Below are positions 425 through 64,000 of a stretch of 64,000 nt of DNA, in pieces. Made by a program: the position numbers and the translations under genes. Every line of letters starts with the position of its first letter. Positions within the stretch are counted from its first letter, which is position 1. A model generated the notes under the pieces. The model did no database searches and had not been told where the DNA came from. It saw only the letters and a list, made by a program, of their open reading frames with translations. Source of the stretch: Limnomonas spitsbergensis (Eukaryota > Chlorophyta > Chlorophyceae > Chlamydomonadales); contig JAYJMM010000041.1 in assembly GCA_037349105.1 (NCBI GenBank), positions 2,666,001 to 2,730,000 of the forward strand. The letters are read 5' to 3'.

Positions 425-600
425 AAAGCGAATGCAGGACTCACGTTTCTGCGGTCCTCCGCCTCTTCTTACTCTCAAGCCATCGTGTCAATAAGAGCAC
501 ATCCCCACTGCCCCCCCCCCCCCCCCCCTCCAACGAATGCAGGATTCGCGTTTCTGCGGTCCTCCGCCTCTTTTTACTCTCAAGCCATCGTGTCAATAAG
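425..600. repeat. Two extra copies of the TBC exon 7 donor junction
   Basis: At about 430-480 and 541-592 the minus strand repeats the end of exon 7 (GAGGCGGAG..CGCAGAAAC) followed by the donor GTGAGT (decayed to GCGAAT in one). The real junction is at 647. Weaker fragments of the same segment lie near 215-245 and 365-385. The acceptor side of exon 7 is echoed at 1030-1086. Confidence 0.8.
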
Positions 601-646
601 AGCACATCCCCACTGCCCCCCCCCCTCCAACGAATGCAGGACTCAC

Positions 647-3600: not shown

Positions 3601-6600
3601 TTTTCCCTGCATGATTTAAACTACAATTCATATTTCACCCACACGTACAGCTGAGACTCACATTGCAGAACACTTGGTACTGCGTCCGCTTAGCCAGGGC
3701 CCTGGCCTAAACCCTAAACCCAAACTTACATCACAGAACACGTGGTACTGCGTCCGCCGCTTAGCTAGGGCCCTGGCCCACTCATCAGGGCTGGGAGGCA
3801 GGTAGCCGAGTAGCAGCTGCAGGGGCAGGGAGGGGGGGCGTGGGGTGGGCCAGAATGACATTGAGTTGATAGATTCAGCCGACAAGGGCCAAGACTCAGG
3901 CTGATAGGGAAGCAGGAAGCCGAGTGGCAGCTGCATGGGCAGGGAGGTGGGGGAGGGATGGGCCAGAATGACATTGAGTTGATAGATTCAGCCGACAAGG
4001 GCCAAGACTCAGGCTGATAGGGAAGCAGGTAGCCGAGTAGCAGCTGCAGGGGCAGGGAGGGGGGCGTGGGGTGGGCCAGAATGACATTGAGTTGATAGAT
4101 TCAGCGGACAAGGGCCAAGACTCAGGCTGATAGGGAAGCAGGTAGCCGAGTAGCAGCTGCAGGGGCAGGGAGGGGGGCGTGGGGTGGGCCAGAATGACAT
4201 TGAGTTGATAGATTCAGCCGACAAGGGCCAAGACTCAGGCTGATAGAGAAGCAGGAAGCCGAGTAGCAGCTGCAGGGGCAGGGAGGGGGGCGTGGGGTGG
4301 GCCAGAATGACATTGAGTTGATAGATTCAGCCGACAAGGGCCAAGACTCAGGCTGATAGGGAAGCAGTGAGCTGAGCAGCAGCTGCAGGGGCAGGGAGGG
4401 GGGCGTGGGGTGGGCCAGAATGACATTGAGTTGATAGATTCAGCCGACAAGGGCCAAGACTCAGGCTGATAGGGAAGCAGGAAGCCGAGTAGCAGCTGCA
4501 GGGGCAGGGAGGGGGGCGTGGGGTGGGCCAGAATGACATTTGAGTTGATAGATTCAGCGGACAAGGGCCAAGACTCAGGCTGATAGGGAAGCAGGTAGCC
4601 GAGTGGCAGCTGCAGGGCCAGGGAGGGGGGCGTGGGGTGGGCCAGAATGACATTGAGTTGATAGATTCAGCGGACAAGGGCCAAGACTCAGGCTGATAGG
4701 GAAGCAGGTGGCCGGGTGGCAGCTGCAGGGGCAGGGAGGGGGACGTGGGGTGGGCCAGAATGACATTGAGTTGATAGATTCAGCCGACAAGGGCCAAGAC
4801 TCAGGCTGATAGGGAAGCAGGATGCCGAGTAGCAGTTGCAGGGGCAGGGAGGGGGGCGTGGGGTGGGCCAGAATGACATTGAGTTGATAGATTCAGCCGA
4901 CAAGGGCCAAGACTCAGGCTGATAGGGAAGCAGGAAGCTGAGCAGCAGCTGCAGGGGCAGGGAGGGGGGCGTGGGGTGGGCCAGAATGACATTGAGTTGA
5001 TAGATTCAGCCGACAAGGGCCAAGACTCAGGCTGATAGGGGAGCAGGAAGCTGAGTGGCAGCTGCAGGGGCAGGGAGGGGGGCGTGGGGTGGGCCAGAAT
5101 GACATTGAGTTGATAGATTCAGCGGACAAGGGCCAAGACTCAGGCTGATAGGGAAGCAGGAAGCCGAGTGGCAGCTGCAGGGCCAGGGAGGGGGGCGTGG
5201 GGTGGGCCAGAATGACATTGAGTTGATAGATTCAGCGGACAAGGGCCAAGACTCAGGCTGATAGGGAAGCAGGTAGCTGAGTGGCAGCTGCAGGGCCAGG
5301 GAGGGGGGCGTGTGGTGGGCCAGAATGACATCGAGTTGATAGATTCGGCCGACAAGGGCCAAGACTCAGGCTGATAGGGAAGCAGGAAGCCGAGTGGCAG
5401 CTGCAGGGGCAGGGAGGGGGGCGTGGGGTGCGCCAGAATGACATTGAGTTGATAGATTCAGCGGACAAGGGCCAAGACTCAGGCTGATAGGGAAGCAGGT
5501 GGCCGAGTGGCAGCTGCAGGGGCAGGGAGGGGGGCGTGGGGTGGGCCAGAATGACATTGAGTTGATAGATTCAGCCGACAAGGGCCAAGACTCAGGCTGA
5601 TAGGGAAGCAGGAAGCCGAGTAGCAGCTGCAGGGGCATGGAGGGGGGTGTGGGGTGGGCCAGAATGACATTGAGTTGATAGATTCAGCCGACAAGGGCCA
5701 AGACTCAGGCTGATAGAGAAGCAGGTAGCCGAGTGGCAGCTGCAGGGCCAGGGAGGGGGGCGTGGGGTGGGCCAGAATGACATTGAGTTGATAGATTCAG
5801 CCGACAAGGGCCAAGACTCAGGCTGATAGGGAAGCAGGAAGCCGAGTAGCAGCTGCAGGGGCAGGGAGGGGGGCGTGGGGTGGGCTAGAATGACATTGAG
5901 TTGATAGATTCAGCGGACAAGGGCCAAGACTCAGGCTGATAGGGAAGCAGGTGGCCGAGTAGCAGTTGCAGGGGCAGGGAGGGGGGCGTGGGGTGGGCCA
6001 GAATGACATTGAGTTGATAGATTCAGCCGACAAGGGCCAAGACTCAGGCTGATAGGGAAGCAGGAAGCCGAGTAGCAGCTGCAGGGCCAGGGAGGGGGGC
6101 GTGGGGTGGGCCAGAATGACATTGAGTTGATAGATTCAGCGGACAAGGGCCAAGACTCAGGCTGATAGGGAAGCAGGAAGCCGAGTAGCAGCTGCAGGGG
6201 CAGGGAGGGGGGCGTGGGGTGGGCTAGAATGACATTGAGTTGATAGATTCAGCCGACAAGGGCCAAGACTCAGGCTGATAGGGATGCAGGTGGCCGGATG
6301 GCAGCTGCAGGGGCAGGGAGGGGGGCGTGGGGTGGGCCAGAATGACATTGAGTTGATAGATTCAGCCGACAAGGGCCAAGACTCAGGCTGATAGGGAAGC
6401 AGGAAGCCGAGTAGCAGCTGCAGGGGCAGGGAGGGGGGCGTGGGGTGGGCCAGAATGACATTGAGTTGATAGATTCAGCGGACAAGGGCAAAGACTCAGG
6501 CTGATAGGGAAGCAGGAAGCTGTGTAGCAGCTGCAGGGGCAGGGAGGGGGGCGTGGGGTGGGCCAGAATGACATTGAGTTGATAGATTCAGCGGACAAGG

Positions 6601-9600
6601 GCCAAGACTCAGGCTGATAGGGAAGCAGGAAGCCGAGTAGCAGCTGCAGGGGCAGGTAGGGGGGGCGTGGGGTGGGCCAGCATGACATTGATGACCATGT
6701 CTGAACCTATTAGATCTTTGTTAGATCTTTGTTAGATCCAGGTCAGATCCACATCAGGTCAGGGAAGATCTCTAATCCTCCACCCACCCACCTTCCTATT
6801 ACAGCTCTGAGGTCATCATTGTACCGGCGAGTCAGATCAGATCCAGGTCAGATCCAGGTAAGATTCACATCAGGTCAGGGAGGATCTCCAATCCTCCACC
6901 CACCCACCTTCCAATTACAGCTGTGAGGTCACTCTTGTCCCGGCAGGTCAGATCAGATCCAGGATTTGTCAAAGATGGTTTAGGTCGGGGTTGAGTCAGC
7001 TCCAGGTTATTATCCAGGTCAGGCCTGTGTAAACAATTCCGCAGAAAAGCCTCCCCAATTCTTAAGACCCCTTTGGGGTGCTTGGGCCTGCATGGTCGGC
7101 CCTGACCATGCAAAATCTTGGGCTTCCAAGGTCCAGGTCAGATCTCCATTCCCCCGCCAACCAACTTCCACATTACTGCTTGCAGATTATTTTTGTCCAA
7201 TCCAGTCAGATCAGATCCAGGTCAGATCTAATTTGGGTCGGATCCAGGCCAGATCTCCATCCTTACCTTCCATGTCACTGCCCGCAGATTGTCCTTGTCC
7301 GGGATCCCATGGAAAGCCAGCCTCCTGAGCGCATGCATGTTGATGCACGAACCTGCCAGCTCCTGCGGGAGGGAAAATATCGGTGTTAAGGGATAAAGGG
7401 GATAAGATCGGCGTTAACAGCAGAAAAAGCTGAGCGCTGCCAATTCCGCAACGGATGCAGGTTGATTCACGAACCCGCCAGCTTATGCGGGAGGAAAAAT
7501 ATCAGCGTTAATAGCAAAGAAAACTGGGCGCTACCCATGCCGCAACATATGCGGGTTGATGCACGAACCCGCCACACCTGCGGGAGGAATCAAATCGGCG
7601 TTCAATTACCGACATGGCCTCAGGGAGGGACATGAATTCGCAATCTCCTGCGAGGGCTAGGACTCATTTTCAACAGCTGAGCGCTGCCCATGCCGCAACA
7701 GATGCAGGTTGATGCAAGAACCCGCCAGCTCCTGCGGGAGGGTGCAGTCACCTCTAATCTAGAAGGCGAGGGGTGCAGCCACAAGACCAGCCGCCCGTCC
7801 CAGGCTTCTAGCAGTGCCCCAAGTACCCTCCTAGACCAGCCACACTAATCTTCTTGCCTGCTTAAAGCGTTGGACCCGCTGTTTCTCTGCACATTTAGAT
7901 AGCGAGGGTGCAGCCACTTCTAAGGCCCCCTGTCCCAGGCTTCTAGCAGTGCCCCAATGGCCCCGTTAGGCAAGCCACACTAATCTTCTTGCCTGCTTGA
8001 AGCGTTGGACCCGCTGTTTCTCTACACATTTAGATAGCGAGGGTGCAGCCACTACTAAGGCCCCCTGGCGCAGGCTTCTAGCAGTGCCCCATTGCCCTGC
8101 TAGGTAAGCCACACTAATCCTCTTGCCTGTTTGAAGCGTTGGACCCGCTGCGCCTCAGGTTCCGCCAGGGCAGAGGAGAGGGACGTGCTGTGCTCTAGCG
8201 GGCTCGACCTATACCGCACAAGAAGAATGAGGGAGGGGAGGTCGGCGATGCAGGGGGCATTAAGGGCCATGAGGATAGCAAAACCATGCTCTGATGATGC
8301 AGAGGATAGGGACGTGATGTGCTTTAGCGGGCTCGGCCTAAACCGCACGAGAAGGAGGAGGGGCGGTCAACGAAGCATGGCGGGCCACAGGGGGGACAGC
8401 AAAATCATGCTTTGATAATGCAGGGGAGAGGGACGTGCTGCAATCAGGCGGGCTCGGCCTATACTCCACGGGAGGGAGGGGAGGTCAGAGTAACAGGCAG
8501 CGTGAGGGGCCACAGGAGGGTGAGCATAATCATGCTCTGATAATGCAGAGGAAAAGGTGCTGCACGCAGGCCAGCGCCTCAACCCCACAGGAGGGAGGGG
8601 AGGTCAGCGAAACATGGGGGTGTGAGGGGCCACAGGAGGTTATCGAAATCATGCTCTGCATAATGTGCAGTCACAGAAATCTTTGAGGCAATGAGTGCAA
8701 GGGAGGAAGGGTGCGAAAAGGTTGGCACAGCCTGGAACAGAGGGTGAGTAAAAGCCGTGGAAATGAGTGCAAGGGAGGAAGGGTGTGCAGAAGCAGGGAG
8801 GGGGAGGGGGATATTATTCCGGGTCTCTCTTCGTGTTTCCTCTGGCAGGAGGGCTGACAGGAGGGCTGACCTTAAGTCTAAGAGCATACGAGCTCCATCC
8901 ATCACCATGTGCCTGGACCCCTTCCGCTGATTGCGGCCTGCACTGTAGATTTGCTTTAATTTCCCTCATACGGTAATCAATAATGTTTCGGGCTGAGGAA
9001 CATATGAAGATACTAAGAATCGATTGTCGACACCAGTTTTCAGTCAGAAATTGAGTGTTTTGGGGCCCTGAGTGCATTGAATTGAAACATTTGTTCACAC
9101 CCGAGGGAAGGTAATTAAATGGACGGCATCTTAATACTTTTTAAATAACACGTAGCCATACCGGTATTTCCAAAGTATTTTTTCCTACTCCCCATGATAT
9201 TGCCCTAGGGGCTGCCTATGCACTAAGGCAGCATATGACAGTGCCACGCTCTTCTGCTGAGTGCGGCCAGCACAACAGGCCGTTATTAACTGTCTTGACT
9301 CGCATGCTCACCAGGCATGAGTGGCTGCAAGTTAAGGGTTCAGGGTCCAGGGTTAAGGGTTCGCTACTTGTTGTAGGGTATCTAAACTATATTGTCGACG
9401 TTTACGCCCATGAGGAATGGGAGCCTGCATGCCAGGGTTGTTGCGATAGCTTCTGTTTATGCATTGATGCTTCAATGGTTGTCAAGAAGGCCAAAGACAG
9501 GATTGAAAGCATGAGCAAAGTATGGGCCTTAGCACTGGGGTCTGACTATGAATGCCTTTTAAACCCGGTGGAGAGAGGAATGCCTTTTTAAATCTTGAGT

Positions 9601-16900: not shown

Positions 16901-19900
16901 TTAAATGTGCTGCCTACTGTTCATGAACTACTGACATCTGTTTTGCGTTTTGTCCTGCCCAACGCAGGTCCTCAGTCTCAAGCGTCTGCTGGTCCCGGGA
17001 TGGCCGACACATGCTCTCAGGTTCCCTAGACAACTCAATAATCCTATGGGACGTGTTGTCAGGCAGCCAGGTAAACACAATGTGATCTTGACTCTTGACC
17101 ATGAAGCCTGAAGCCTCGGCTAGGCAAGGCTGGGTGTGATCAGCCTATGGGACGTGTTGTCAGGCAGCCAGGTAAGGACAATATGATCTTGAATCTTGAC
17201 CATGAAGCCTGATGCCTCTGCCTGGCAAGGCTAGGTTTGATCAGCCTATGCTGCTTGTTGACAGGCCGCCAGGTAGAGCAAGAGGATCCTCACTCTGGGC
17301 CATCAGGCCTGAATCCCCAGATAGGGAAGGATAAGTTTGATCATATTTTGTGGATATGTTGTCAGGCAGCCAGGTGAAAGCAAGATGATCCTGATGCTTG
17401 GCCATGAAGCCTGAATCCCCTGCTACTCAGCTAGGGGAATACGTTTGACCAGCCTTAACTGCTTGTTGCCAGGCAGCCGGGTAAGAGCAAGATCACCATG
17501 GATCTTGACCCGAATGCCCTGAGCCACCAGCCAGGTAAAGAGAAGTTCAATCATCTGTTTTAGACGTGCTGCTAGGCAGCCTGATATAGGCAAAATTATC
17601 TTGGCTCTTGACCCTAAGGCCTGAACCCTGAGCCATGTAGGAACTGTTTCATCATCCTATGCGGCGACATTATACCTGATACGTTATGCCTAAAACCTTC
17701 AACCCTAAACCTTAAACCCTAAGCCGCAAACCTTAAACCCTAAACCTGAAACCTGAAACCTTAAACCCTAAATCCTAAACCTCAAACCCTATGCATTATA
17801 CCTTATGGGCCATAAGTTATGGCTTATACCTTATACCCTACACCCCTGTGCCCTACCGTTTCCTACCTCTTATGCCCAACGCCCAATGTCCTCCCCCGTT
17901 CCCTGCCTATGCCCTATGTCTCCAATTCCCTACTTCCTCCCCCGTTTCATGTCTCTTCTGCTCAATGCCCTATGTCCCTGTGTCCACTGCTTCCCTAGGT
18001 CATCAAGGTAGTGTTGCCCTCAGCCGTGTCCCAAGTCAGCCTCACACCCAGGCCACCTTACCTTTGTGTGGCCAGCCTGTCAGACGGGACGTCACCGATC
18101 AAGGTGGACCTGAGCAACGGGAGCCAGCAGACATTGCCCACATTAGGTGAGAAAAGGAACATCAACGAAGTCAACAAATATGAAAGACCAGAGCCGGGGG
18201 ATGAATGGGGTAGGCTGAAGGGCCATGATTCCTAACAATCTGAAAGGACTGTAAATAGCTTTTCTGATGAGCCAGCAGAGACTTCTCAAGAGAGAAAGAA
18301 AACTACGCCCCCCCTGGGGCGTGCGGGTTAAGGGAATAGCGCAGCTCGGGGCCGAAGCCACGAAGACTTCTCAGCCACTAAGCCAGCAGAGACAACCGAT
18401 ATCATAACTTGTGATCAACGCTCCTTGGAAGCTGTGCTTGGGGATTTGCGGGTGGACCTTTCAAATGAGGGCTGCCCACCTTTTGAGATTCGTACGGGAC
18501 GGGCTTTAATCAACCTGAACTGCCGGCATGCGTCCTCTCCTCCTGTAGTTTACAATTACACCCCTCTTCCCGTTCAGGGGAGGTCGAGGGCGCCCCTGGC
18601 TTGGTCGCGCTGCTGAGTAAAGGCGGGGACATGGTGCTGCTGGGGCAGTCCAAGGGGGGTCTCCTGGCGCTGCTGGATCTGACCACCCTGAGATGCCTCG
18701 ACATACTTAAGGTTGGTGGACGCACATGTGGGCATGTGCAGATGGTTGTATGTGCATGTGTGTCTGCGAGGCACGCCTGCTGCTATTTGTGCGAAGTGTC
18801 GCTGGACCTGAGCACCCTGCGATACCTCGTAATACCAAGGTGCGTGGACGCGCATGGGGCCAAGGCCAGGTGTGTGCAGTGCACACACCCAAGACTGTGC
18901 ACATGTTTGTATTCGCGTATGTGTGTGCGTGGCGAACCTGCTGTTTATTTGTGATTCATGCCGCTGGACCTGACCCCCCTGCGGCGCCTCGACATACTCT
19001 GAAGGTGGGTGGGTGTTTGTACATGTGTCTACATGGAACACATGGATGTTGCACATATCTCCCTCTAGTTCATGGATTAGCCCTCAACCCCCAGCCCTCA
19101 ACCCCCAGCCCTCAACCCCCAGCCCTCAACACCCAGCCCTCAACACCCAGCCCTCAACACCCAGCCCTCAACACCCAGCCCTCAACACCCAGCCCTCAAC
19201 ACCCAGCCCTCAACCCCCAGCCCTCAACCCCCAGCCCTCAACCCCCAGCCCTCAACCCCCAGCCCTCAACCCCCAGCCCTCAACCTCCAGCCCTCAACCC
19301 CCAGCCCTCAACACCCAGCCCTCAACCCCCAGCCCTCAACCCCCAGCCCTCAACCCCCAGCCCTCAACACCCAGCCCTCAACACCCAGCCCTCAACCCCC
19401 ATCCCTCAACACCCAGCCCTCAACCCCCAGCCCTCAACCCCCAGACCTCAACCCCCAGCCCTCAACCCCCAGCCCTCAACCCCCAGCCCTCAACCCCCAG
19501 CCCTCAACCCCCAGCCCTCAACCCCCAGCCCTCAACCCCCAGCCCTCAACCCCCAGCCCTCAACCCCCAGCCCTCAATCCCCAGCCCTCAACCCCCAGCC
19601 CTCAACCCCCAGCCCTCACCCCCCAGCCCTCAACCCCGACTCCCCAATAGGTGCCCAGCGCTGCATGTATCTCCAGCCTGGTTAAGGGTTTGCCCCAAAA
19701 TCCGAATCCCTCAAACCCACTAGGTGCCCAGCGCTGCATGTATCTCAAGCTTAGTTTGGGGTTTGGCCCTAAACCCGAATCCCTCAAACCCTCAAACCAC
19801 CTCGGTGCCCAGTGCTGCACGTATCTGTAGCCTGGTCCTGAACCCTAAACCCTAAGACCCAACGCCTGCCTAGGTGCCCAGTGATGCACGTATCTGTAGC

Positions 19901-22900
19901 CCGATCCTGAACCCTGAACCCTGAACCCTAGACCCTAATCCCCCAATCCTGCCTAGGTGCCCAGTGCTGCACGTATCTCTAGCCTGGTCCTGAATCGCAA
20001 GGGCACACTGCTGCTAGCCAACTGCCACGACCGGTGCATTCGGCTGCTGGAGGTGCAGCCCAGGAGTAGCCTGCCAGAGGATTCCCAACGGGGATATGAT
20101 GAGCAGCAGGTGGTAGCAGCGCTTGCACAACCCAAGGTGAGGGGACGGTTAAGGGGATTCCCAACGGGGATATGATGGACAGGCAGGTGGTAGCAGCGCT
20201 TGCACAAACCCAGGTGTGCGGTTGTTTGAGTTGGAGGGCGTGGCCAGAGGGTATGCCGGATGGCAGAAGGTGAGGGGCGTTTAGCTAGTTAGGGTGGGGA
20301 GGTGCTGCGGAAGGCCCTTTGTGGCATGAACCCTAAACTCTTAACCCTAAACCTTAAGGGGCATGAACCCCAAACCCTAAACCCTAAGGGACATGAACCC
20401 TAAACCCTAAGGAGCATCAACCCTAAACCCTAAGGGGCATGGGCCAAAACCCTTAACCTTAAGGGGCATGTACCCCGAACCCTAAACCCTAAGGGGCATG
20501 AAACCTAAACCCTTAACCCTAGAGCCCTTTGCGACATGTGCCGTATACCCTAGGGGCATGAACCCTAAACCCTTAACCCTTAACCCATAACTCGTTACCC
20601 TGAAGACGAGCCCAGGAGGGAGGGTGTTGAATAGAGCAGCCCCACTGAAAGTGTATCTTGCACCAGAACCTGGTCTTGGCTGTGAAAGCGCCTACACCTC
20701 CTCCCAGCTTTAATCTCAAGGCTTGTAGGAGGGAGCGCCTGGTAATAAAGGTTCCGTGGCCCTTAACCCTCCTTGGCCTCCCCCCGTACCCCTGCCCCTC
20801 TTACATACTCCCTCTGACCCTCTACAGGATGTTCCTGTTCCAACCTTGATCACACACCCATTCTCCTGGCCCATGTCCTGGCCCACCCACCTTAACGCCC
20901 CCCCCCCCCCCCTTTCTGGCCTATGTCCTTGCCCATGCACCTTTCCGCAGCCTGATCCAAATGTCAGGCGATTAAGCTGCAGACACAAAGCACCTTGCAG
21001 AGGCCCCCCTACCCCCTCGGCCCCTCAGAGCTCACATTCGACATTCAAACGTCCAGGCAGTTAAACGACCCTTCAGAGCTCATATTAGACATCCCTGGCA
21101 GATAATCCCCCGGAATCCCCCCTCCTACCCCCGATCAGATGGCATAGGACTCCGGGACTTCCCTAGAACATCATGCACCCCTGTTCCTTTACCCCCCTCC
21201 TCCCCCCCTCCTCCCTGCCCTTGCAGTGCCCCTCCCATCCCCTCTTCGATGGCCCCGGTTTGCTGTCCCATGTGCGGGACTTCCAGAACGTCGTGGAGCG
21301 CTGCTCCTGGCGCTCCTGCTGCTTCAGGTATGGGGTTCACACCTAGTTTTTACCCCAAGCTAAGAGTTCAGGTATGGGGTAATGTGGTTCACCCCTAGCT
21401 TGTACCACCACCCTAGCTCCTTCACCACCCCCAAGCTAAGGGTTCAGGGTGTCAGGTTATGGCTCAGGCGCCCCTGCTGCTTCGGGTACAGGGTTCACCC
21501 CCCAGATTAAGGTTCATTTCCAGGTAATGGGTTTCACCCCTAGCCCCTATCGTGTACCCCAAGCGAAGGGTTCAGGGTTTGAGTGTTATGGCTCAGGCGC
21601 TCCTGCTGCTTCAGGTACGTGGTTCACCCCCCAGCTTAGGGTTCAGGGTGCGAGCCTATACCCACTCATACCCATTCATACTCCCTCATACCCACTCATA
21701 CTCCCTCCTACCCACTCTTACTCCCTCACACCCACTCACACTCCCTCATACCCACTCATACTCCCTCACACCCACTCACACTCCCTCATACCCACTCATA
21801 CTCCCTCACACCCACTCACACTCCCTCATACCCACTCACACTCCCTCATACCCACTCATACTCCCTCATACCCACTCATACTCACTCACACCCACTCACA
21901 CTCCCTCATACCCATTCATACTCCCTCATACCCACTCATACTCCCTCAAACCCACTCATACTCCCTCATACTCCCTCATACCCACTCATACTCCTTCATA
22001 CCCGCTCACACCCACTCATTCTCCCTCATCCCACTCATACTCCCTCATACTCCCTCATACTCCTTCATACCCACTCATACTCCCTCATACTCCCTCATAC
22101 TCCCTCATACTCCCTCATAACCACTCATACCCACTCATACTCCTTCATAACCATTCATACTCCCGCATAACCACTCATACCCCCGCCTCCTGTCTCCTCC
22201 TTGTACAGCAGCGACAGTGAACATGTGATTGGCGCATCTGCCAGCAAGGCAGAGCACCACCTCTACATCTGGAACCGGATATACGGGAACATGGAGCGCA
22301 TCCTGGAGGGTGAGGTGCAGGGTTGAAGGGGTATTGGGTTTAGGGGTAAAGGGTTGGGGTTTGGAGCGCATCCTGGAGGTTAAGGGGTATAAGGTTGGGG
22401 TTTGGAGCGCATCATGTGTAATCCCTGTTTCGATATGGAGCGCATCCTGGAGGGTGAGGTGTAGGGTTGAAGGTGTAGGGGTATAGGGTTGGGATTTGGA
22501 GCGCATCCTGTGTAATCCCTGTTTCAACATAGAGCTCGCCTTGGAGTTGAGGTCGAGAGATGAGACATGGAGTGAATCCTGGAGGTGGAGATTGAGGGTT
22601 CAGGTTGAGAGCAAGTCCTGGAGGGTGAGAGAAACTGAAAAAGTGAAAACTGTTCTGGGTTAAAGGATTTTAGATGGTCGCGATATATTTGATTTGCCCG
22701 CGGGTCTGTACAACTATCTAAGTGTGTGTCGCCCTCATGGCAAACTATCGACCAAGACTCGTAATTTCCGTCTGAGAACTGGCGTCTTCAATCAATAATT
22801 AGTACGGTACATTCAAGGATCACAAAACAACAGTAATGATGAGGAAGGCAAAGCAAATCTACGGGACCGGTAATCCAAATCTGGGAGGGCAAGAAAACAG

Positions 22901-25900
22901 CGATTCACGCTTGAGCGCTGTAAGTAAGATATCTAATACTACCCATCCCCCTCACACCAGGGGGTGGCCCCCGGACCCCCAAGCAGAAGGGCAGTGTCCC
23001 CCCGTCCCCCCCCCCCCATCTTGCGAGGCTTTTCCGCGCCTCGTGGTAAACAGTTACCTCAGAATTGGTCGAAAAATCATGACGTGGTTACATCAGGGTA
23101 TTATTGCTTCCTTCACACAAATCACTTTTTTGCTTCATTCCTAGTCCCTGCAGATGGGCCCAAAAGCAGTAGCTTGCCGCGCCTTGTGGTAAAAAGTCAC
23201 CTCAGAATTGGTCAAAAATCAAGGGCAATAGAAGTGTTAAAATCAGTGATTTACCGATTCCTAAAAACAATCACTGCTTCACATTCTTCCCAGTCCCTGC
23301 AGAGGGGCCGAAAGGCAGTGGCTTGACAGCTTGTAAGTACAGGATATTGAGTATCATAATAGCTTAACGTGCGGACGGCACCCCCCCCTCTATACCTTGC
23401 TTCCACTGGCAGGCCCCAAGGAGGGCGCCTTGGCTGTGGCCTGGCACCCGCTGCGATCTGTTCTGGTCAGCGTGTCTGGTGGTGGGCGCGTGATGTGCTG
23501 GGCCCGCATCTACAGGTGAAGGGGGGGTAGGGGGCGGGTGGAGGAATGTGTGACCTGGCACCCGCTGCGATCTGTTCTGGTCAGCGTGTCTGGTGGTGGG
23601 CACGTGATGTGCGTTGGGCACGGACCTACAGATGGGGGGAAGAGTTGAGAACTGGAGTGGCATCACCAATGGCTTCCAGGATTGATCAAATGCACCCTTT
23701 TACGACTTGGTCACGGCTTGGCGTTTAGGCTTATGCGACAGAGGCCATGAGCTTGTGCATGGTCATTGGAAAAGCAGAGAAGCTATTTTGTCTGGGGAAA
23801 TCTTCTGGGCGTTTCTTTGTGTGCATGATAAAATAGGAATTGCCCCCCCCCCTCCATTCCCTGCCATAAGAAAGGGATTATGCCTTGTTGCCTGACCTTA
23901 TCTTGACATTTCTCCCCTCCCTGTCGTGAGAACTGGAGCGCCTGGCCGTCAGGCCTCATGCATGTTGTCTCCCTGCCTGCAAAAAAACTAAACCTTCAAA
24001 ACCCTTAACCCTCCCTGCCTGCAGTGAGAACTGGAGCGCCTTTGCGCCGGACTTCCTTGAGCTGGAGGAGAACCTGGAGTACGTGGAGCGAGAGGATGAG
24101 TTTGACTGGAACACGCCGGTGAGCCTTCTCTATCCCTCTTCCTCTTTACGTCCCAACCTTAAGCTGTGTTTCTTTTAGCGGGCACCAGCCCACCCGTAGG
24201 GGGCTGCCCGGCGGCGACCACGGGCCCATATGGGGACAAAATCTTGACCGACCTATGGCCGGTGGCCCGAGCAGCAAGACTTGCTGCACCTGATGTAGCT
24301 GAATTGTAGCTGATATGCGTCAAAAGAAACGCCCGACTTCAGCCCCCCTCGTTTTATGGAGAAAGCGGACGCCGGTGAGTCTTTTTCATCTCCCCCCCCC
24401 ATCACGTCCTCAACCCTAAAGACACATCCGCTGGTGTGGAGGGAGCGAGCTTTGGCGCTGTGTTGTAGGGCTTGCTGAACCCGAAACCCGAAACCCTTTC
24501 CAGGTACCCTGTTCGGAGTTTTTAACTGACTGCCGTGTGTTCTTCGGTTGTAGGGAGCCGTAGGGTAGGGTTTGCTGAACCCTGAAACCTGCCCCTGGAC
24601 CCTTTACCCACGACGGAGACGTTAACCGAGTGCGATGTGCTGCAGGGTGCTATGGCCACGACCACCCCCGCCGACGCCGGGCAAGCATCAGCTTCGAAGG
24701 TTGCGGCCACTGTGGCTGCTGCTGCAGCTGCTGGCGCCTCGCCAGTGGCCAACGGCAAAGCCTGCGCGGAAAACGGGGCAACAGCGGCGGCTGCGTCTGA
24801 TCCGCAGGCTATGGCCGTAGACACTGCTGTAAAGGGTGCTGGGGTGCCTGCCGCCACCGTCGCCGCCAGCACCGCAGCACCCACGGCTGTCGTATCTGAT
24901 CCGCATGCTATGGCCATGGACACTGCTGTTAAGGATGAGGTGTCTGCTGTCAGCACTGCGGTGCCTGCGGCCGCGGACGCGACTGCCGTGTCTGATGTGC
25001 AGGCCATGGCTGAGGATACTGTGGCGGTGTCAGGTGTCGCAGAAGCCGCTGCAGGTGTTTCAGCCCCCACGGCTGTGGCAGCGGAAGGAGTGATGGACCC
25101 TGCCGCTAGTGGTGCTGCCACTGACGGGACTGTTGCGGACGCTGCTGTTGATGTTGCAGTTCCTGCAGCTGCGGTAGATGCTGCTCCAGCTGCTGGCATG
25201 ACAGTTGCGAACACTGGTGCCGATGCCTCTGCTCCTGCGGCTGCGCCTGCTTCTGCACCTGCTCCTGCGGCAGCGGCGACGCTAGATACTGCGGCGGCTA
25301 CGGCGGCGGTAGATGCTTGTGTTGCTGCTGCCGATATGACTGTTGCGGATATTGCTGCGCCTGGTCCTGCTCCAGCTTCGGTGAGGATAGATGCTTCTGC
25401 TGCTGTTGCTGCTGCTGACACTACTGTTGCGAAGACAGTTGCGGCTGCGGCAGCTGGTTGTGATATGACTGCCGTTGCTGCTGATATGACTGCTGCGGCT
25501 GGCGGTGGTGCTGCGGCCGCTGCTGGCTTGACTGCTGCAGCTGGTAGTGCCACTGCTGCCACTGGGGCATCAGACCTGCCGGAGGTGCGTTTGGGGTAGG
25601 GTATGACTCCCCTGGCTCTGGCAAGACATGACCCTTCATCGTACTTCATAATACAAAGTACAACAAGGCAGTACGTTATTGTGTAAGGTTTATCATTTGG
25701 GTGTGGGGAAGACACAGGTTCCAGATTACCTTCGTGACGGATCCAGCTTCAGCTACATTTCAGCTACGCGTCGACTTACAATTGCACCGCCCCACACACC
25801 CTAACAAGAGGTCCCGCCGTGCAGCCGAATGGACTTCTGGCGAACCTGGCCCTTTTGAAAATGTATATTGGGTGAACAGGTTGGCGCCTGAACCCTGAAC

Positions 25901-28730: not shown

Positions 28731-28732
28731 TG

Positions 28733-45300: not shown

Positions 45301-48300
45301 TTGACCTTTCACCCAAACCCTAGGTTATCAACATTTGACCCTGAGCCCTCAACCCTGACCCCCGCCTGTCCAACGCCGCCTCCAGGAAGGGTCTCTCCAG
45401 GTAACCCTTTTCCCGGTCAAACCCAATCATAGTCAAACCCTAATCACATTCAAGCCCTAACCTTACCTTTCCAACGCGGCCTCCAGGAATGGTCTCTCCA
45501 GGTAGCAAGGGCGCATCAAGCTGTGCAAGAAGGCTGCCTGGCGGGCCATGGCGCCCAGCAGCTCCCCCATCAGCTGGCTGCGGTTGCTGCTCTGCTGCTC
45601 TACCTTCAACGTGTTGTACGGCCTGGGGGGGAAGAAAGGCTCAGGGGCGCCCTGGCCTCGCGCCGGCCGGACCGGCCAGGACTTCCGGACTTGCTCCCTC
45701 CACAGCTCCTTTGTGAGCGCTTCGCAGGCGCCAATCCCGACATGTGTGTACGTGAGTCCCGGCGTTGACATGGTGCCGTTGGTGAAAGCGAAGGGCCCCG
45801 GGCTGCAGGTCTGATAGCAAAGTGGCAGCGGCGTTCGGCCGGCCTGATTCTTTCGCCTGTGAAGAGTGTGATCGGACATTGCTGCATCAGTGTTGGTGGT
45901 TCCGGTGCTTCAGCTACAATTCCGCTACAACTTACGAGCCATGCACGGCTTCAAGTCTGTCTGTTCAAACATAGGCTGCAAGGCTGCGACACACCGGCAG
46001 TCAACCCTGTTCATGTCACAGGGATTCAGCTACATGTCAGCTACACATCAGCTACATGTCAGCTACATCAGGGGTAGAACCCGGTGCTGACATTGGCCCT
46101 AGACCTATACACAAGCAGTAGTCATTGCTTATCATGGGAACTAGTCTCTATGATTGCGTACTACGATGATTGCGTACTAGTAGATAGTTAGATACCTGTG
46201 GGCAACCTAACGATGTTGCAACAACATTTCGCCCCCTGCGCGGATATGGCTACGGCCCCAAGCAGCGTTGTGTCCTTAACTTCCACGCCCAAATAGGGCG
46301 TAGCTATCGTTCTTTCACCCCCTGAATAATTTCACAGAGTTTCTCCGCGCGTGCTGAGTGTGATATAGCTCCCCAACAGGCCAGAGGCAAGGCCAGCCAT
46401 GGAAGGGAACAGCAACAAGCAGCACAGACTCTTTCAGAATACTCCAGCAACGTTTGCACCCCCTGGTTTGCACGGTGTCTATCCGGTAGTGTTTCGTGTC
46501 ATAATAACTTATGTTGGGAAGCGTACTGTTGCCGCCAGAGTCTCTGGTTACGGAGGGATTGTAATTCGTTTAAGGGTTCAGGGATGTGGGCCTAGAAACC
46601 CTATACCCCGGCTAACCTGTGGCAGGTAAATGACGTTACACCTCTGGACCCTGCTCAACAACAAAGCTCGGCCACGGCCAGGGTTGTAATCCAAACCGGC
46701 GGTGCCTACCCAGTTTCGAAATTCACAAACAATTATCCCTTCCGATGTCAGGGTGAATCAGCTACAGCATGTCAGCTACAGCATATCAGCTACAACATGT
46801 CAGATACAGCATGTCAGATTGTCAGATACAGCATGTCAGCTACAAAATGTCAGCTACCAATGTCAGCTACAGCATGGTGTCAGGCCTGCTGCCGGCCCAG
46901 CATACGGTGCATACCTCAGCTTGACACTCCATGACCACAAGGCATACAAATTACTTTTATGACGCCTCAGTAGCAATCATCGGTGTCTTTCAATGATTTA
47001 GAACCGGTGCATACTCGCTGGGCCCTGCCGAAGGCTCAGCCGCGTGGGGCTGGTAGGGAATGACTAGGCTAAATTCCAGCTACCATGCACAGCCACGACC
47101 ATAGTGCAGCCGTGTCACCCTCCTGTGAAGGGGCAGGAACATGGAACCCGGCGGTCCAGGCAGGGGGAGAGAGACGATGGTATGGCGGGTTCAATCCCAC
47201 AACCTTCGGATCTGGATGCCACCAGCATTTTACCACTGGACCATTTCCCCTTTCAAGTAAGTTGACGACTCAATAGCACCACGCCAACCCGGCAGGATAG
47301 CCTACCTTGATGTTGGGGTCGACACCAGGCGAGGGAACGTGTCAAGGCCGCCTCCATAAACAAGTTATTTGCAGTATTGCGTGTAGGCTTGGGGGTTCAG
47401 GCGGTGGACGAGCCATACGTAAGCCACGTCCAATGGCGGCACCAGATTCGGCAGATGGGAGGATCCTTTTGCAGAGGCCAGCAGGGGCAGCCAGACTTTC
47501 TCGTACCGGCGGACGGCCTCTATGGCGTAGGGGCCGGAGTAAAGGCCACCCTGTGGAGTGGAGTTTGAGGGGAGTGATAATGAGGACAGCTGTGCTGGTT
47601 TTAGTTTGCCTTGGTTAAATCATAGCCTACAGCTGGAGGGGCTCGAGGGGTGCAGCCGGCCCGGCTGCACCACTACAGCCCCTCCAAGCCGCCAGCCCCA
47701 GGCTGGTCAAGGTGTGGTCCTAAACATCGGCTCAGTGTTGATTGGCGCCCAAACCTGAGGTGGTTAGAAGCGCACTGACATCAACTCTGGAAGGCTGCAT
47801 GGTAGAGAAGGTGAGGCAAGCTTCGCTGCTTTCCTTTCTTCCGGGGTTTAGAGCCCTTGCATGAAGAAATTCACATTTCCTCAGTCACTCAAATCGACAT
47901 ACGGTAGCAAGAGAAGCGTCAGTAGGTACTGGCGTACTGCATGGACACATTCAATTTCCTACAGGTTTCCTTTAGGCCCCGGTGTAAAATTAAAAAAAAG
48001 GGGTCGGTCAGACTATCGCGTTTGGTGACTTGCGTTTGACATTCATGATCGGAAATAGCCTATCAGAAGATACGGGCGCAGTTGATTCCATTTGAACATA
48101 ACAATGTTTTATCCAAACGCTAACCCCCCCCCTGCGTTTCGCGTCTGCGTTTGCGTTTGGAAGTCCAAACGCAACCTCAAACGCAACGCAGTCTGAACTC
48201 CCCCTAACACACATACTAACATACTGGTATGCAACGTAAGCAGAATGTGCCGTATTAAATCACATTCGTGATTTCGTGAATTTGTCCGAAATGGAGTACA

Positions 48301-52083: not shown

Positions 52084-55000
52084 CTATGCAAACACTCTCT
52101 CTCCCGTGCACATCATATTCCATGCTACCGTCCCGACCACATACAACGCAGCCGTCAGCAAGAACACCGAACTGAACGACTGTGTGGCCTCCACTATGAA
52201 GCCGACAGCCGTCACGCCGATGATGCCGGAGAGAGATCCGAACGTGTTGCACAGCCCAAACATCTTGCCTGCAAAGAGGAGTAGGTGGAGAGTTGCAAGG
52301 CTAATGAGTGATGATCACTAAGCAGTGCTTCTTTCCCCCCCGGCTACAAGTCCTGTTTCGACAAGCCGCCCCTGCGGCCGCCGAAGGCCCAATTAGGACC
52401 GATCCAGGACCGACGTACGAACGGTAGTCAAGGCTGCATGGCTTGCGTCAACTGGGGTCCACGGCCAGAGGCCAGAGTATAGCTGACATGTAGCTGAGTC
52501 ACGAAAAAGAAACGCTGATGATCAGATGCTGGAAATAGGGAGAGCCAGACGTGCTGCAGACGTCTAACGTCTTGCCTGCAACGAGGCGGGTTCATAACTG
52601 AGGTCCAGGTGCAGTATACTAATATAAAGTGAAAGATAAGGGGGGGCCTTGCCGTAGATTTACTTTGCCTTCCCACATAATTAACGTTGTTTGGGGTCGA
52701 GGTATCTATGGAAAGCATTAGTATCGACTGCCGCTGCCAGCTTCCAGTCTGAAATGAAGATTTTTGGTGGAGATTTGCCTCGAGGGCAGCCTTAAAAGCA
52801 ATCGATTTTCATATATGAAGGAAGGAAAGTCAAATCTCCGGAGCACTTTCGTACAAGTCTGGACTCTTTCGTCATCTTTATGAAGGTTACCGCATTTTAG
52901 TCAGAGACTACACCAGTATGCGGTAACCTTCATACCAAGGGTGAGCCAAAAGCGTGTTGAAGAGACCAAATATCTGGCCTGCTGTGAACCCACAACCTGC
53001 AGGGTCGGGGACAGTGCTGTTGCAATTGCGCCGTAATTCAGAATCTATGCAAAGTGGTCACGGTCTCGTACCGTAGAATCGGATAGGGTTCGTGCACCCC
53101 TACTCTGCATATTATAAATCACCGCGCGTAAAAACACATGACGCTGTGCACGCGCAGCTGGTTTTCGTTTTTAATGGTTAAAAATCTATATTGCGCACCC
53201 AGTCCGAAAGACATAAATGAAGGTCAACGCAGTGTTTTGGGGCAGTCGTAATGTCAACTCCGTGCAGCGCTTACAGCCACTATGTATTAATATACTGCTA
53301 ATCACCTCAATCAGAAACCTAGTTTGACGCATGAAAGGACAGTACACGGTCAGCAATCAATGAACCTATGTCGAATCAATCAGTCGCACGCTAGCGCGCG
53401 GCTTCTTTAATACCGGTACCGGTAGTTGGTGCTGGAAAAAGTACGCGCCCCCCCCCCCAAATAGTTGGTTTGGTCTTTGACAGAGTGGCAGCGCACCCCT
53501 GATGTGAATTGATATGTTATCGCGCATCAACTCCTCGCACCCCCAAACAATATTATTTCTTAACTGAGTCAGACCGGTTCTACTGTGCTGGTAAAAGTAT
53601 AATTTGTATTGCAATGATGGTGGCTAAAACTCAGCTACGGTACGTAATCCAACCACCGTGTGGGCCGACATCGACACAGCACTGGTTGTGGGTCAGCAAT
53701 GCTGACTCAGCATCACATGGTTCCCAAGCCACCACAGCGGCAAGCTGTCATGTGGCCTTGATGGAAGCCACACACATGAAAAATGAACTTGCAAGCACCC
53801 TCCTGCCTACCCCCAGTCCTCCCTCACGCGACCTTGCCCACCCGCTGTCCGCCCGTCTCCTTCCAGTATCCACCCAACCACAGCCATCCCCACCATGGTA
53901 GCACGATACGGCATGATACAGCGCAATACGGCACATGTTCAGCTGGATGGTATTACCAAGTGCCTCGATACGGAACAGGTTCAGCCGGATTGTGCTACCA
54001 TGATCCCCACACCTCGGCCCATACCACGTTGTTTCCTCAACCCTCACGCCCCTGCGGGTATAGTTTGAATTATTTCTATCATCCACTCTATCATCCCCAC
54101 TATGCCTACCTACCTGCGTGGCGAGGCGCGATGTCCGACATGTTGGCCACAAATCCAGCCTGGCCGAGAGAGGTCGTTCCCAGGGCCACTGTCAGGACAC
54201 GCCAGAGAGAAGGCAAAGTAACATATAATATCGACATGTTGGCCACAAATCCAGCCTGGCCGAGAGAGGTCGTTCCCAGGGCCACTGTCAGGACACGCCA
54301 GAGAGAAGGCAAATTAAAATTTGATATCAACATGTTGGCCACAAATCCAGCTTGGCCGAGAGAGGTCGTTCCCAGGGCCACAGCCAGGACATATAACAAA
54401 GAGAAAAGGGCACATGGACACAAAAGATAAAGGTCATCGCAACAGTTTATATTGGAAAATGACGAAGCTCCAGCTTGATTGAAAGAGGTCGTTTCCAGGG
54501 CCACGGCCGGGCCCCCCCCTAGACCCTTAACCCTAAACCCAACACCTGCCTGTGGCATTGCGTTGCCAAGTAAGGATGTGGACCCATGGCAACAGGTGTG
54601 AGATGGAAGTTCCCTCTACCTTGCATCCCTCTACATCTCTCGCCTCACCCGTCATGGCTGAAACCGCTTGCCCGGGCGACAACCCCGGCTGTGCCAGCAC
54701 CATCAGCGCCACCGCAGGCACCAAGAAAGCCACAGACTGCAGTCTCTTGCGCACCTTAACACACATAGGTTTCAGGGATAGGGCATAGGGTTCAATATTT
54801 TTCACGAATGACAGTTTTTCTGCACCTACGCACATGCTGTGAGGGCCTATACTACAGAGCTTAGGGTTTGTTATTTGCCTCTGATGGCAGCCTCTTTAAC
54901 GCCTGAAGTCAAGCTTGCCTAGAGTCTATGCTAGAAGCATGACGAACACACAAACAAATCCACTGATTGGAGCCTCTTGCACAAGGAAACTACGGTATAC

Positions 55001-61000: not shown

Positions 61001-64000
61001 GAAACCCTTAACCCTAAACGCTTTTGGCCGCACCTCCGTGGAAACCCTTAACCTTAAACGCTTTTGGCCGCACCTCTGTGGAAACCCTTAACCCTAAACG
61101 CTTTTGGCCGCACCTCCGTGGAAACCCTTAACCCTAAACGCTTTTGGCCGCACCTCTGTGGAAACCCTTAACCCTAAACGCTTTTGGCCGCACCTCCGTG
61201 GAAACCCTTAACCCTAAACGCTTTTGGCCGCACCTCCGTGGAAACCCTTAACCCTAAACCCTTTTGGCCGCACCTCCGTGGAAACCCTTAACCCTAAACG
61301 CTTTTGGCCGCACCTCCGTGGAAACCCTTAACCCTAAACGCTTTTGGCCGCACCTCCGTGGAAACCCTTAACCCTAAACGCTTTTGGCCGCACCTCTGTG
61401 GAAACCCTTAACCCTAAACGCTTTTGGCCGCACCTCCGTGGAAACCCTTAACCCTAAACGCTTTTGGCCGCACCTCCGTGGAAACCCTTAACCCTAAACC
61501 CTTTTGGCCGCACCTCCGTGGAAACCCTTAACCCTAAACGCTTTTGGCCGCACCTCCGTGGAAACCCTTAACCCTAAACGCTTTTGGCCGCACCTCCGTG
61601 GAAACCCTTAACCCTAAACGCTTTTGGCCGCACCTCCGTGGAAACCCTTAACCCTAAACGCTTTTGGCCGCACCTCTGTGGAAACCCTTAACCCTAAACC
61701 CTTTTGGCCGCACCTCCGTGGAAACCCTTAACCCTAAACGCTTTTGGCCGCACCTCCGTGGAAACCCTTAACCCTAAACGCTTTTGGCCGCACCTCTGTG
61801 GAAACCCTTAACCCTAAACGCTTTTGGCCGCACCTCTGTGGAAACCCTTAACCCTTAACCCTTTTGACCGCACCTCCGTGGAAACCCTTAACCCTAAACG
61901 CTTTTGGCCGCACCTCCGTGGAAACCCTTAACCCTAAACGCTTTTGGCCGCACCTCTGTGGAAACCCTATACCCTAAACGCTTTTGGCCGCACCTCCTTG
62001 GAAACCCTTAACCCTAAACGCTTTTGGCCGCACCTCCGTGGAAACCCTTAACCCTAAACGCTTTTGGCCGCACCTCCGTGGAAACCCTTAACCCTAAACG
62101 CTTTTGGCCGCACCTCCGTGGAAACCCTTAACCCTAAACGCTTTTGGCCGCACCTCCGTGGAAACCCTATACCCTAAACGCTTTTGGCCGCACCTCCGTG
62201 GAAACCCTTAACCCTAAACGCTTTTGGCCGCACCTCCGTGGAAACCCTTAACCCTAAACGCTTTTGGCCGCACCTCTGTGGAAACCCTTAACCCTAAACG
62301 CTTTTGGCCGCACCTCCGTGGAAACCCTTAACCCTAAACCCTTTTGGCCGCACCTCCGTGGAAACCCTTAACCCTAAACGCTTTTGGCCGCACCTCCGTG
62401 GAAACCTGAGAATGCAAGGCCTAGGGCTCGGGACCTGGACTCCTTAGGGATGTGGGTGGCCAGCAGGTTGTTCATGGTGGGCAGCGCAACGCCCTCTCCC
62501 AAGCCCTGCGTGATGTAGGGTGAAAGCAAGTGGCTGCTCATAATGAGTAGGTGGTGGGTGGCCAGCAGGTTGTTCATGGTGGGCAGCGCAACGCCCTCTC
62601 CCAAGCCCTGCGTGATGTAGGGTGAAAGCAAGTGGCTGCTCATAATGGGCAGGTGGTGGGTGGTCAGCAGGTTGTTCATGGTGGGCAGCGCAACGCCCTC
62701 TCCCAAGCCCTGCGTGATGTAGGGTGAAAGCAAGTGGCTGCTCATAATGGGCAGGCGGTGGGTGGTCAGCAGGTTGTTCATGGTGGGCAGCGCAACGCCC
62801 TCTCCCAAGCCCTGCGTGATGTAGGGTGAAAGCAAGTCGCTGCTCATAATGGGTAGGTGGTGGGTGGCCAGCAGGTTGTTCATGGTGGGCAGCGCAACGC
62901 CCTCTCCCAAGCCCTGCGTGATGTAGGGTGAAAGCAAGTGGCTGCTCATAATGGGCAGGTGGTGGGTGGTCAGCAGGTTGTTCATGGTGGGCAGCGCAAC
63001 GCCCTCTCCCAAGCCCTGCGTGATGTAGGGTGAAGGCAAGTGGCTGTTCATAATGGGCAGGTGGTGGGTGGCCAGCAGGTTGTTCTTGGTGGGCAGCGCC
63101 ACGCCCTCTCCCAAGTCCTGCGTGGTGTAAGGCGATCGCATGTGGCTGTTCATAATGGGCAGGCGGTAGGTGGCCAGCAGGTTGTTCATGGTGGGCAGCG
63201 CCACGCCCTCTCCCAGGCCCTGCGCGGTGTAGGCTTCTTGTTATCAAGTCAATGTTATCACCCGTAGCCATAGCGCAGGGTGAATGTAAACTAATTAGGT
63301 TGCATGGCTGTCCATGACGCGCTGGATAGGGGGGGCAGCAGGTACTTCAAGTCGGGCATGCACCCTGCAACCATCAACACGAGCGCTGTCAGGCCGGTAG
63401 CCCCGGCAACAGCCCATTCCCTTTCACACACCGATCACCACCGTGCCCCTTGCCGCCAACATCACGAGAACGGGAGCAGGAAGCGCGTGTCCGATTGCAC
63501 GCAGCGACACCATCTGACCACCACATATCTTCCTGCCTGGACTGTGTCAACTGTCACACCGGCAGCCCCAGCAACACCCTATATCCTCCACGCACCGCTC
63601 GACACCGCGCCCCCCCCATACCGCCAACATCACAATAACGGGAACGAGAAGCGCGTGTACGATTGTACGCTGCAACAACATCTATACCATCTGACCACCA
63701 CGCATCTTCCTGCCCGGACTGCGTCAACACTCAGGCCAGCGGCCCCAGCAGCAAACCTCGTCCCCTTACTCGCCACTCAGCTATTTTGGACAGGCCATCT
63801 GCTCCAGCAGCACCCCTTCTGTCCCCCCCTCCCAATACCTAAAGGATTGACTTAAGCACAGGCAGTCATGGAATCAACCAATCCTGTATTTCTGTCTTCT
63901 GGAGTTCCACCCTCCCTTTTTACACGCCACTCACCACCATACACCTTGCTGCCAGTATGGCAGGCACCGTAAGGCCAGCTGCCCCAGCTGCGCCTCTCAT
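52084..64000 (-). CDS. PHT4: PHT4/SLC17-type anion (phosphate) transporter, 5' end outside window
   Basis: Nine exons join in phase on the minus strand: 64000-63935 (partial), 62505-62406, 57784-57589, 57073-56989, 56119-56009, 55427-55299, 54754-54649, 54188-54114 and 52268-52084 (TAG). The protein is a major-facilitator transporter; plant PHT4 members move inorganic phosphate or other anions across plastid or Golgi membranes. Diagnostic stretches are ILAARCMV-GLGEGVALPTMNNL, RSRALGLAFSG, LTLGWRSLFLIFGMLG, WAIIIVNIVNHWGYFIYLNW, SLLSFLPWLVMA and, in the last exon, GLCNTFGSLSGIIGV with LYVVGTVAWNMM. The cytoplasmic loop exon 57073-56989 is Gly/Ser-rich and the least certain. N-terminal helices and any plastid transit peptide lie beyond the right edge. 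Which substrate is carried cannot be told. Intron 2 (62405-57785) is 4.6 kb of minisatellites. Confidence 0.92.
52540..52995. repeat. Two echoes of the PHT4 last-exon acceptor
   Basis: ACGTGCTGCAGACGTCTAAC then TCTTGCCTGCAACGAGG (52549-52588), and GCGTGTTGAAGAGACCAAAT then ATCTGGCCTGC (52951-52984), mirror ACGTGTTGCACAGCCCAAAC plus ATCTTGCCTGCAAAGAGG at the real junction (52242-52279). Confidence 0.8.
54234..54520. repeat. Three echoes of PHT4 exon 8 acceptor
   Basis: Units starting near 54234 and 54328 repeat ACATGTTGGCCACAAATCCA through GGGCCACTGTCAGGACA and the following intron bases; a third, shorter one is at 54465-54510. Each keeps the acceptor CAG on the minus strand, so four acceptors compete. 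The outermost merges into CCCTTAACCCTAAACCC. Confidence 0.93.
55475..55600. repeat. Two echoes of PHT4 exon 6 acceptor
   Basis: GACATGTCGAACAACATGGTCTG (55479 onward, first part GAGGAGGACATG) and GAGCGCATACCGAACGCCAT (55566) mirror GAGCGCATGTCAAAACCCAT at the real exon start (55427). Both keep a CAG- or CAC-type acceptor remnant. Confidence 0.82.
56205..56275. repeat. Echo of PHT4 exon 5 acceptor
   Basis: About 60 bases, GACGATGATGATGGCCCAGG onward to CTCACGCACCTTAGGGATGA, repeat exon 5 and its upstream intron (56060-56135). A telomere-like TTTAGGGTTTAGGG stretch lies between copy and original. Confidence 0.9.
57310..57380. repeat. Echo of PHT4 exon 3 near its donor end
   Basis: CTTGTTTGGGTGTGTGGGTG then CCGTTGCCGTCCAGAACGC mirror CTTGTTTAGGCGCGTGGTTG and CCGTTGCCATCCAGAAGGC inside exon 3 (57648-57687). 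It lies 300 bases downstream of the gene's real donor. Confidence 0.82.
58030..58130 (+). repeat. Dispersed type B repeat with a Pol III A-box-like core
   Basis: ATGGTACCTGGAATTGAG, then CCACGCGGCCGAGTGTTCAG and GGGCCCAGCGGGTATGC. Other copies are at 28440-28505, 50255-50345, a fragment near 32935, and inverted near 47035-47080. The TGGCCGAGCG core resembles a tRNA A box, suggesting a SINE or LINE tail. Confidence 0.65.
58320..59040. repeat. Degenerate tandem repeats in PHT4 intron 2
   Basis: Units of roughly 130 bases with GTCCAATGACAGGG and CAGGGCCTCAGGTCA, then 15-base units GTTTAGAGCCTCAGG at 58910-59035. They lead directly into the 22-bp array. Confidence 0.75.
59041..60530. repeat. 22-bp minisatellite (AAGGCCTTCATTGAATCAGA-AG), about 67 copies
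   Basis: Nearly uniform 22-base units containing AAGGCCTT and TTGAATCA with a few variant units (GGAGG, TTTATGG, ATTAG) that themselves recur in order, showing that blocks of several units were duplicated together. Confidence 0.97.
60680..62405. repeat. 40-bp minisatellite with a telomere-like half, about 43 copies
   Basis: Units read CTTTTGGCCGCACCTCCGTG then GAAACCCTTAACCCTAAACG, so half of each unit is a CCCTTAACCCTAAA telomere-like string. The right-most unit abuts the PHT4 exon 2 donor: the first intron bases GTTTCCACGGAGGTGCGG (minus) are the unit itself. Confidence 0.97.
62461..63235. repeat. 102-bp array: PHT4 exon 2 acceptor region in 8 copies
   Basis: Copies start near 62461, 62563, 62665, 62767, 62869, 62971, 63073 and 63175. 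Each holds, on the minus strand, an acceptor-like CAG followed by GGCTTGGGAGAGGGCGT and codons for GEGVALPTMNNLLATH. Only the lowest copy continues into the rest of exon 2 and its donor. Since 102 is 34 codons the frame stays open through the array (275 codons). Confidence 0.96.
63375..63785. repeat. Three echoes of the PHT4 exon at the right edge
   Basis: Segments at about 63380-63480, 63545-63650 and 63715-63780 repeat CAGGCCGGTAGCCCCGGCAA-like sequence and, in the first two, CACCGTGCCCCTTGCCGCC-like sequence. They correspond to AAGGCCAGCTGCCCCAGCTG and CACCATACACCTTGCTGCC of the real exon (63935-64000). Confidence 0.75.

Follow-up and report, generated by a model that had tools for sequence, protein, structure and literature searches.

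The introns of the Arctic snow alga Limnomonas spitsbergensis carry many short direct duplications, and some of the duplicated units include an exon edge, so that copies of a splice junction lie inside its own intron. This was examined in a window of 64,000 nucleotides (contig JAYJMM010000041.1, forward-strand positions 2,666,001 to 2,730,000) and in a wider sample of 306 introns from the genome, whose published assembly is described in the available part of its report as 124 contigs, 260,248,090 bases and 54.15% GC (PMC11228838). An earlier note on the window, made from its letters alone, had described such echoes at nearly every exon edge of four genes and had attributed them to a process that starts at splice junctions and enlarges introns. 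The reading we favor, with a probability of roughly 0.63, is frequent short direct duplication, likely by break repair, combined with purifying selection and with at most a modest bias toward junctions. Simulations of random placement account for much of the pattern.

Junction echoes in the window

Each of the 29 edges listed in the earlier note was represented by a 60-mer centered on it and compared with 1.2 kb on either side and with 20 distant 1.2-kb controls. At 27 of the 29 edges, one side scored at least 20 and beat the best control; 20 edges scored at least 24. Two edges gave no confirmed echo, 23413 (12.0 against a control maximum of 14.0) and 24118 (14.0 against 14.0). The echoes are one-sided, as had been claimed, in that the opposite side never exceeded 14.5, with the qualification that at 52268 and 27792 it passed its own control maximum marginally (14.5 versus 14.0 and 14.0 versus 13.7, respectively). 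No reverse-complement match reached 24 at any of the 29 edges, nor did any distant control. The exons of RBBP5 were set by hand from the reading frame and homologues, the automatic model having been dropped for its spurious introns, and all ten RBBP5 edges that have a copy carry it on the intron side. Tandem arrays over exon edges were also seen by self-comparison and with Tandem Repeats Finder (TRF), and the copy numbers of 1 to about 25 given earlier proved correct (25.6, 7.7 and 3.7 copies in three of the arrays in Table 1). Copies are unevenly spread: in blocks of 4 kb, they were found for 0.17-0.91 of probes from 1 to 28 kb, for 0-0.11 at 28-52 kb, a region that includes two GRDP edges, and, for the three blocks at the end, for 0.09, 0.34 and 0.87.

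Local arrays across the sampled introns

The wider sample is dynein-heavy, with 299 introns from 16 dynein genes and seven from RBBP5, and its median intron length is 440 bp. The dynein loci were obtained by grouping 89 AAA_6 matches into 16 loci, for which 280 kb of sequence was taken; genes were modeled by spliced protein-to-DNA alignment against homologues and in-genome paralogues with hand-set scores, position weight matrix (PWM) scoring having been dropped because it over-split exons. For both the RBBP5 and dynein queries, the best matches that bear a name come from green algae. Introns shorter than 80 bp, introns found by fewer than three reference alignments or whose local match was weak, and exon-only hits were dropped, except that six introns were kept from a first set of 180, chosen by its own criteria. 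Arrays were tallied by our own alignment; a blastn self-search with low gap costs missed clear cases. Repeats of period up to 30 were removed for all array calls and for all masked counts.

Local direct arrays hold 27.8% of the 165,091 sampled intron bases, which bears out the claim that the pattern is local and enlarges introns; short-period repeats make up 20% of the bases and may overlap this fraction. The 223 arrays lie in 179 of the 306 introns, and 75 touch the donor edge, 45 the acceptor edge and 103 neither. When introns were compared with those of another gene, the array score was attained in 4 of 306 cases. The spacer between copies is at most 10 bp in 140 of the 223 arrays, the other 83 being spaced; the median shift is 98 at donors, 114 at acceptors and 57 in the interior, and identity ranges from 0.60 to 1.0 with a median of 0.76.

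Of the 17 sampled genes, 16 have arrays that touch an exon edge, and the pattern is genomic, as had been proposed; the remaining one, a dynein gene with 29 introns, has none and still contains five interior arrays. The statement that nearly every exon edge is echoed does not carry over to this sample, where about 20% of donors and about 15% of acceptors are involved. A survey with 60-mers found a copy scoring at least 24 at 153 of 620 edges, a total that includes 22 window edges preselected from the listed-junction test. Better preservation of the nearest copies holds as a tendency in this part-selected set, with 41 edges for and 9 against among 57 that have at least two copies. Any local duplication process, wherever begun, predicts such a gradient, and we rejected it as proof of seeding at junctions.

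Junctions versus deep intron

Copy density was measured with 40-bp probes, each sought in its own intron at a threshold of 20/40, and positions 100-200 bp from the donor or acceptor were taken as deep intron. Probes that were more than 40% masked or lay past the nearer half of the intron were left unscored. After masking, the fraction of probes with a copy was 0.211 at 10 bases before the donor, 0.203 at the donor and 0.152 at the acceptor, with deep-intron values of 0.148 on the donor side and 0.154 on the acceptor side. When edge and deep positions are set against each other, the masked fractions are 0.183 versus 0.148 for donors and 0.125 versus 0.154 for acceptors, and the unmasked fractions are 0.194 versus 0.240 and 0.131 versus 0.266. 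The excess of copies at junctions over other intron positions that the earlier note implies is not borne out: the density in the deep intron is similar or higher. At exon positions at least 80 bases from an edge, copies were found for 2 probes out of 711 and for none out of 718. Matches in introns of another gene, one being chosen at random for each edge, amounted to 0-1%, and for probes at the junction to 0-0.3%. At the same threshold, no offset gave inverted local copies for more than 1.2% of probes. The first run, on 180 introns, gave much the same picture, and the donor peak stood out more (0.20 at 10 bases before the site versus 0.10-0.17 in the deep intron).

A proposed role for duplication and selection

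We propose that introns keep gaining short direct duplications along their length, with periods mostly from tens of bases to about 150, and that some of the duplicated units would include the exon edge and leave decoy splice sites in the intron. A duplication that crosses the edge would keep the outer exon copy, the frame and the true site, and with splicing at the exon-proximal site the message would survive; selection would purge duplications confined to exons. Because an edge-crossing duplication leaves the outer exon copy intact, selection suffices to explain why echoes lie only on the intron side. Edge pairs should also stay recognizable longer, since selection keeps the exon copy from changing. 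The duplications may originate in the repair of staggered breaks or nearby nicks, by fill-in with end joining, and filler would often be left between the copies. Break repair yields small tandem duplications, including ones with additional mutation, as described in the accessible text of PMC8355091.

Among the clean edge copies that could be placed, the echoed splice site is intact in 23 of 29 cases for GT and in 18 of 28 for AG. With echo sites largely intact, the spliceosome would usually have to pick the exon-proximal site. Large flanking introns are reported to favor pairing of a splice site with its nearest partner across the exon, and short introns to favor pairing across the intron (PMC9225289, available portion).

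Random placement and a possible bias toward junctions

The null model takes three effects into account, namely that an interior duplication covers two stretches of intron, that selection preserves the exon copy and that duplication has lengthened the introns. We chose the unit lengths, rates and ages used in the simulations, and the ranges quoted span every setting run; since the simulated introns are free of short-period repeats, masked values are the closer comparison. One set of simulations yields too many copies whose source is entirely exonic (0.02-0.06 per side, where 0.008-0.017 was observed). The simulated ratio of edge to deep density is 0.70-0.93 for donors and 0.67-0.95 for acceptors. 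The masked acceptor ratio of 0.81 falls within this range, and the unmasked ratios are 0.81 for donors and 0.49 for acceptors. The first 180 introns hold 40 donor, 24 acceptor and 54 interior arrays among 118 (0.34, 0.20 and 0.46), similar to the simulated shares of 0.26-0.28, 0.24-0.27 and 0.42-0.48. A clean set was defined by a period of at least 50 and an identity of at least 0.75, which retained 104 arrays and excluded 119 of the 223; coverage by these clean events is 0.106-0.121 at the donor and 0.115-0.121 in the deep intron.

Several observations weigh against our reading. The masked donor ratio is 1.24, about 1.3-1.8 times over the null, and the masked ratios of flank to deep density are 0.86 and 0.93, versus 0.49-0.69 simulated. 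When the simulation is given the unit lengths of interior arrays, it yields shares of 0.15-0.18 and 0.14-0.15 in place of the observed 0.33 and 0.19. An exon edge is touched by 75 of the 104 clean duplications (72%; 38-50% simulated) and by 17 of the 24 with identity of at least 0.9 (36-48% simulated). Clean events have a spacer of more than 10 bp in 70 of 104 cases, versus 13-15% in simulations with contiguous copies only, which means that spacers must often be left, either at duplication or through later change. Among spaced donor copies, 17 of 27 end no more than 14 bp after the splice site, and donor breakpoints per kilobase are highest, at 4.2, from 0 to +15, with 4.0 from +45 to +60 and 1.0-2.9 beyond 60. 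Arrays touching the donor also outnumber those touching the acceptor by 75 to 45. A shortage at acceptors would be consistent with selection against upstream acceptor sites, yet the two kinds are almost equally frequent in the clean set (39 donor and 36 acceptor). Finally, coverage should dip at the edge under the null, so the flat coverage by clean events leaves room for a bias, and we rejected it as standalone evidence against one. Easier detection next to a frozen exon was likewise rejected as a full account of the pattern, since the edge excess is also present among recent clean events. The masked donor ratio above the null, together with the excess of clean events, makes a modest junction bias possible.

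Alternative explanations

A mutational process tied to junctions, for example through R-loops, spliceosome-bound sites or conflict between replication and transcription, could act on top of background intronic duplication, and we regard it as an unlikely but serious alternative. It would draw on the excess of edge-touching clean duplications, on the masked donor ratio and on the sharpness of some ends, since besides the 17 of 27 spaced donor copies ending at +0 to +14, 13 of 23 spaced acceptor copies begin at -20 to 0. Three donor examples have exon parts that are 95-100% identical and flanks that do not match ungapped, and the sharp examples include copies of -42 to +9 and -42 to +7 at an identity of 0.96; one of the three, when gaps are allowed, aligns on into the intron (-42 to +116, 0.70). 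Against such a process, the deep intron is as rich in copies as the edge, acceptors lie inside the null, and donor breakpoints at +45 to +60 are as dense as those at 0 to +15; acceptor breakpoints per kilobase are 3.0 at 0 to 15 versus 4.0-4.1 at 30-45 and 130-160. One simulation alone places 17 of 29 spaced donor ends near the site, with 6/27, 6/23 and 15/41 in three others, and in an incomplete blastn-based set the intron flank of the donor copies is alignable too in 14 of 31. The junction-initiated process of the earlier note thus fares unevenly: random intron positions are as dense in copies as junctions, an outcome that the earlier note had itself named as a refutation and that speaks against it, and donor and clean-event counts above the random-placement null speak for it. 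Its stronger form, in which junctions are the preferred substrate and about 50 bp (some 45 exonic and 3-14 intronic) are copied a short distance into the intron, enlarging both ends and seeding decoys, seems to us more doubtful still.

Retention of the copies for a function, for instance as decoys or backup sites in splicing regulation, would be in line with the many intact echo sites, but this retention would resemble what sequence identity alone gives, and copies without splice sites are equally dense in the deep intron. Shifts divisible by three number 30 of 71 at donors (18 of 36 clean donor events), 15 of 42 at acceptors and 36 of 103 in the interior; there is no clear frame preference, and an excess at donors is suggestive only. 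We consider a functional origin very improbable. Tandem arrays are a classic problem of assembly, and an assembly or polishing artefact would thus be a natural suspicion; we give it hardly any credence, because the assembly rests on PacBio reads (L50 33 kb, 63x) polished with Illumina data, according to the part of the genome report at hand (PMC11228838), and the copies differ from one another by the margins given above. The echoes, whose loss from long-read assemblies had been named as a refutation, survive in this one.

Features of the window

Table 1. Exons, edges and arrays in the 64,000-nucleotide window. TBC, GRDP and PHT4 are the names given in the earlier note; scores out of 60 are for the 60-mer test.
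Feature	Position	Strand	Basis
RBBP5 exon, donor edge echoed	16968..17070	+	Frame, homologues; 49/60 rightward, control maximum 12
Donor-edge array of 17070, period 101, 3.7 copies	17043..17415	+	TRF; copies 73, 174, 281 and 492 bp from edge
RBBP5 exon, donor edge echoed downstream	18579..18711	+	Frame, homologues; 28.5/60 rightward
Acceptor-edge array across true acceptor 19957, period 83	19837..19994	+	TRF; 42/60 leftward
Donor-edge copies of 22309, period 94	22383..22553	+	TRF; 39/60 rightward
Donor end of exon 23413-23515 plus a copy of it, period 114	23435..23657	+	TRF; alignment -81 to +7, identity 0.89
Exon (TBC)	3730..3816	- (from splice motifs)	26/60 left of 3730; 47.5/60 right of 3816
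Array of 25.6 copies, period 113, units with the 3816 exon edge	3793..6691	-	TRF; 25 copies by 60-mer
Array across 8127 edge, period 135	7790..8150	-	TRF; 44/60 left
Intron array adjoining 8208 edge, period 121, holds edge copies	8277..8665	-	TRF; 41/60 right; copies at 99 and 220 bp
Array of 54188 edge (PHT4), period 96	54136..54391	-	TRF; 60/60 right
Array of 62505 edge (PHT4), period 102, 7.7 copies	62452..63233	-	TRF; 60/60 right
Edge with leftward copy (GRDP)	45467..45467	-	28.8/60, control maximum 12.4

Inverted local copies were found for 0.30, 0.24 and 0.13 of probes at 28001-32000, 56001-60000 and 60001-64000, and for 0-0.03 elsewhere in the window; foldback or mobile sequence is possibly present in these three blocks. 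Similar minus-strand reading frames at 36527-37076 and 42399-43448 are perhaps copies of a mobile element; a Pfam scan of four window open reading frames (ORFs), including 42399-43448, returned no family. Within RBBP5, positions 24646-25587 hold a long alanine-rich reading frame with no Pfam match. On the sense strand of the 299 dynein introns, there are 119 copies of the telomere-like motif CCCTAAA (16 expected) and 32 of TTTAGGG (10 expected), an orientation bias, and the sampled exons contain neither; CCCTAAA is present in 58 of the 306 introns.

Comparison with known systems and significance

The pattern fits neither intron gain by AGGT duplication nor introner elements, as the earlier note had argued. 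Introners (PMC9860276) also tie repeated sequence to introns, but they place similar sequence at many loci, whereas the copies here are local to one intron and scarcely match other genes. In the potato RdRp (PMC4974935) and Drosophila (PMC2891723) cases, so far as the accessible parts of these papers describe them, an intron-exon border is duplicated together with its splice signals, as here, and an 83-bp tandem duplication within an intron is noted in the potato paper as well. Unlike in those cases, no new intron arises here: the intron already present becomes longer, and its outer splice sites appear to stay in use, judging by reading frame and homology. The edge copies sit inside the existing intron, with deep-exon probes copied in just the two cases above.

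Small tandem duplications from break repair are short, directly oriented and sometimes accompanied by additional mutation (PMC8355091, in part). Direct orientation is found here, as are units of tens of bases that are adjacent or separated by short filler; unlike those duplications, the ones in L. spitsbergensis are many, cover a range of ages along the sampled introns of one genome and often have periods above 100 bp. Repair is the most likely origin.

Intronic minisatellites are likewise tandem units of tens of bases within introns, and a case reportedly exists in C. elegans (PMC4039745); unlike in these, some units here include the exon edge. We found no description of junction echoes inside introns in open-access titles and abstracts on intron gain and small tandem duplications, though this does not prove that none exists, and the available part of a study of Chlamydomonas introns (PMC8226300) reports none.

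Local duplication supplies much of the sampled intron sequence, with about 28% in arrays and 20% in short-period repeats, overlap being possible. Full-length transcripts (IsoSeq) exist for L. spitsbergensis, as stated in the accessible part of PMC11228838, and could reveal which copies get spliced. With an intact splice site in many of the copies, these introns amount to a natural experiment in spliceosomal choice between nearly identical sites.

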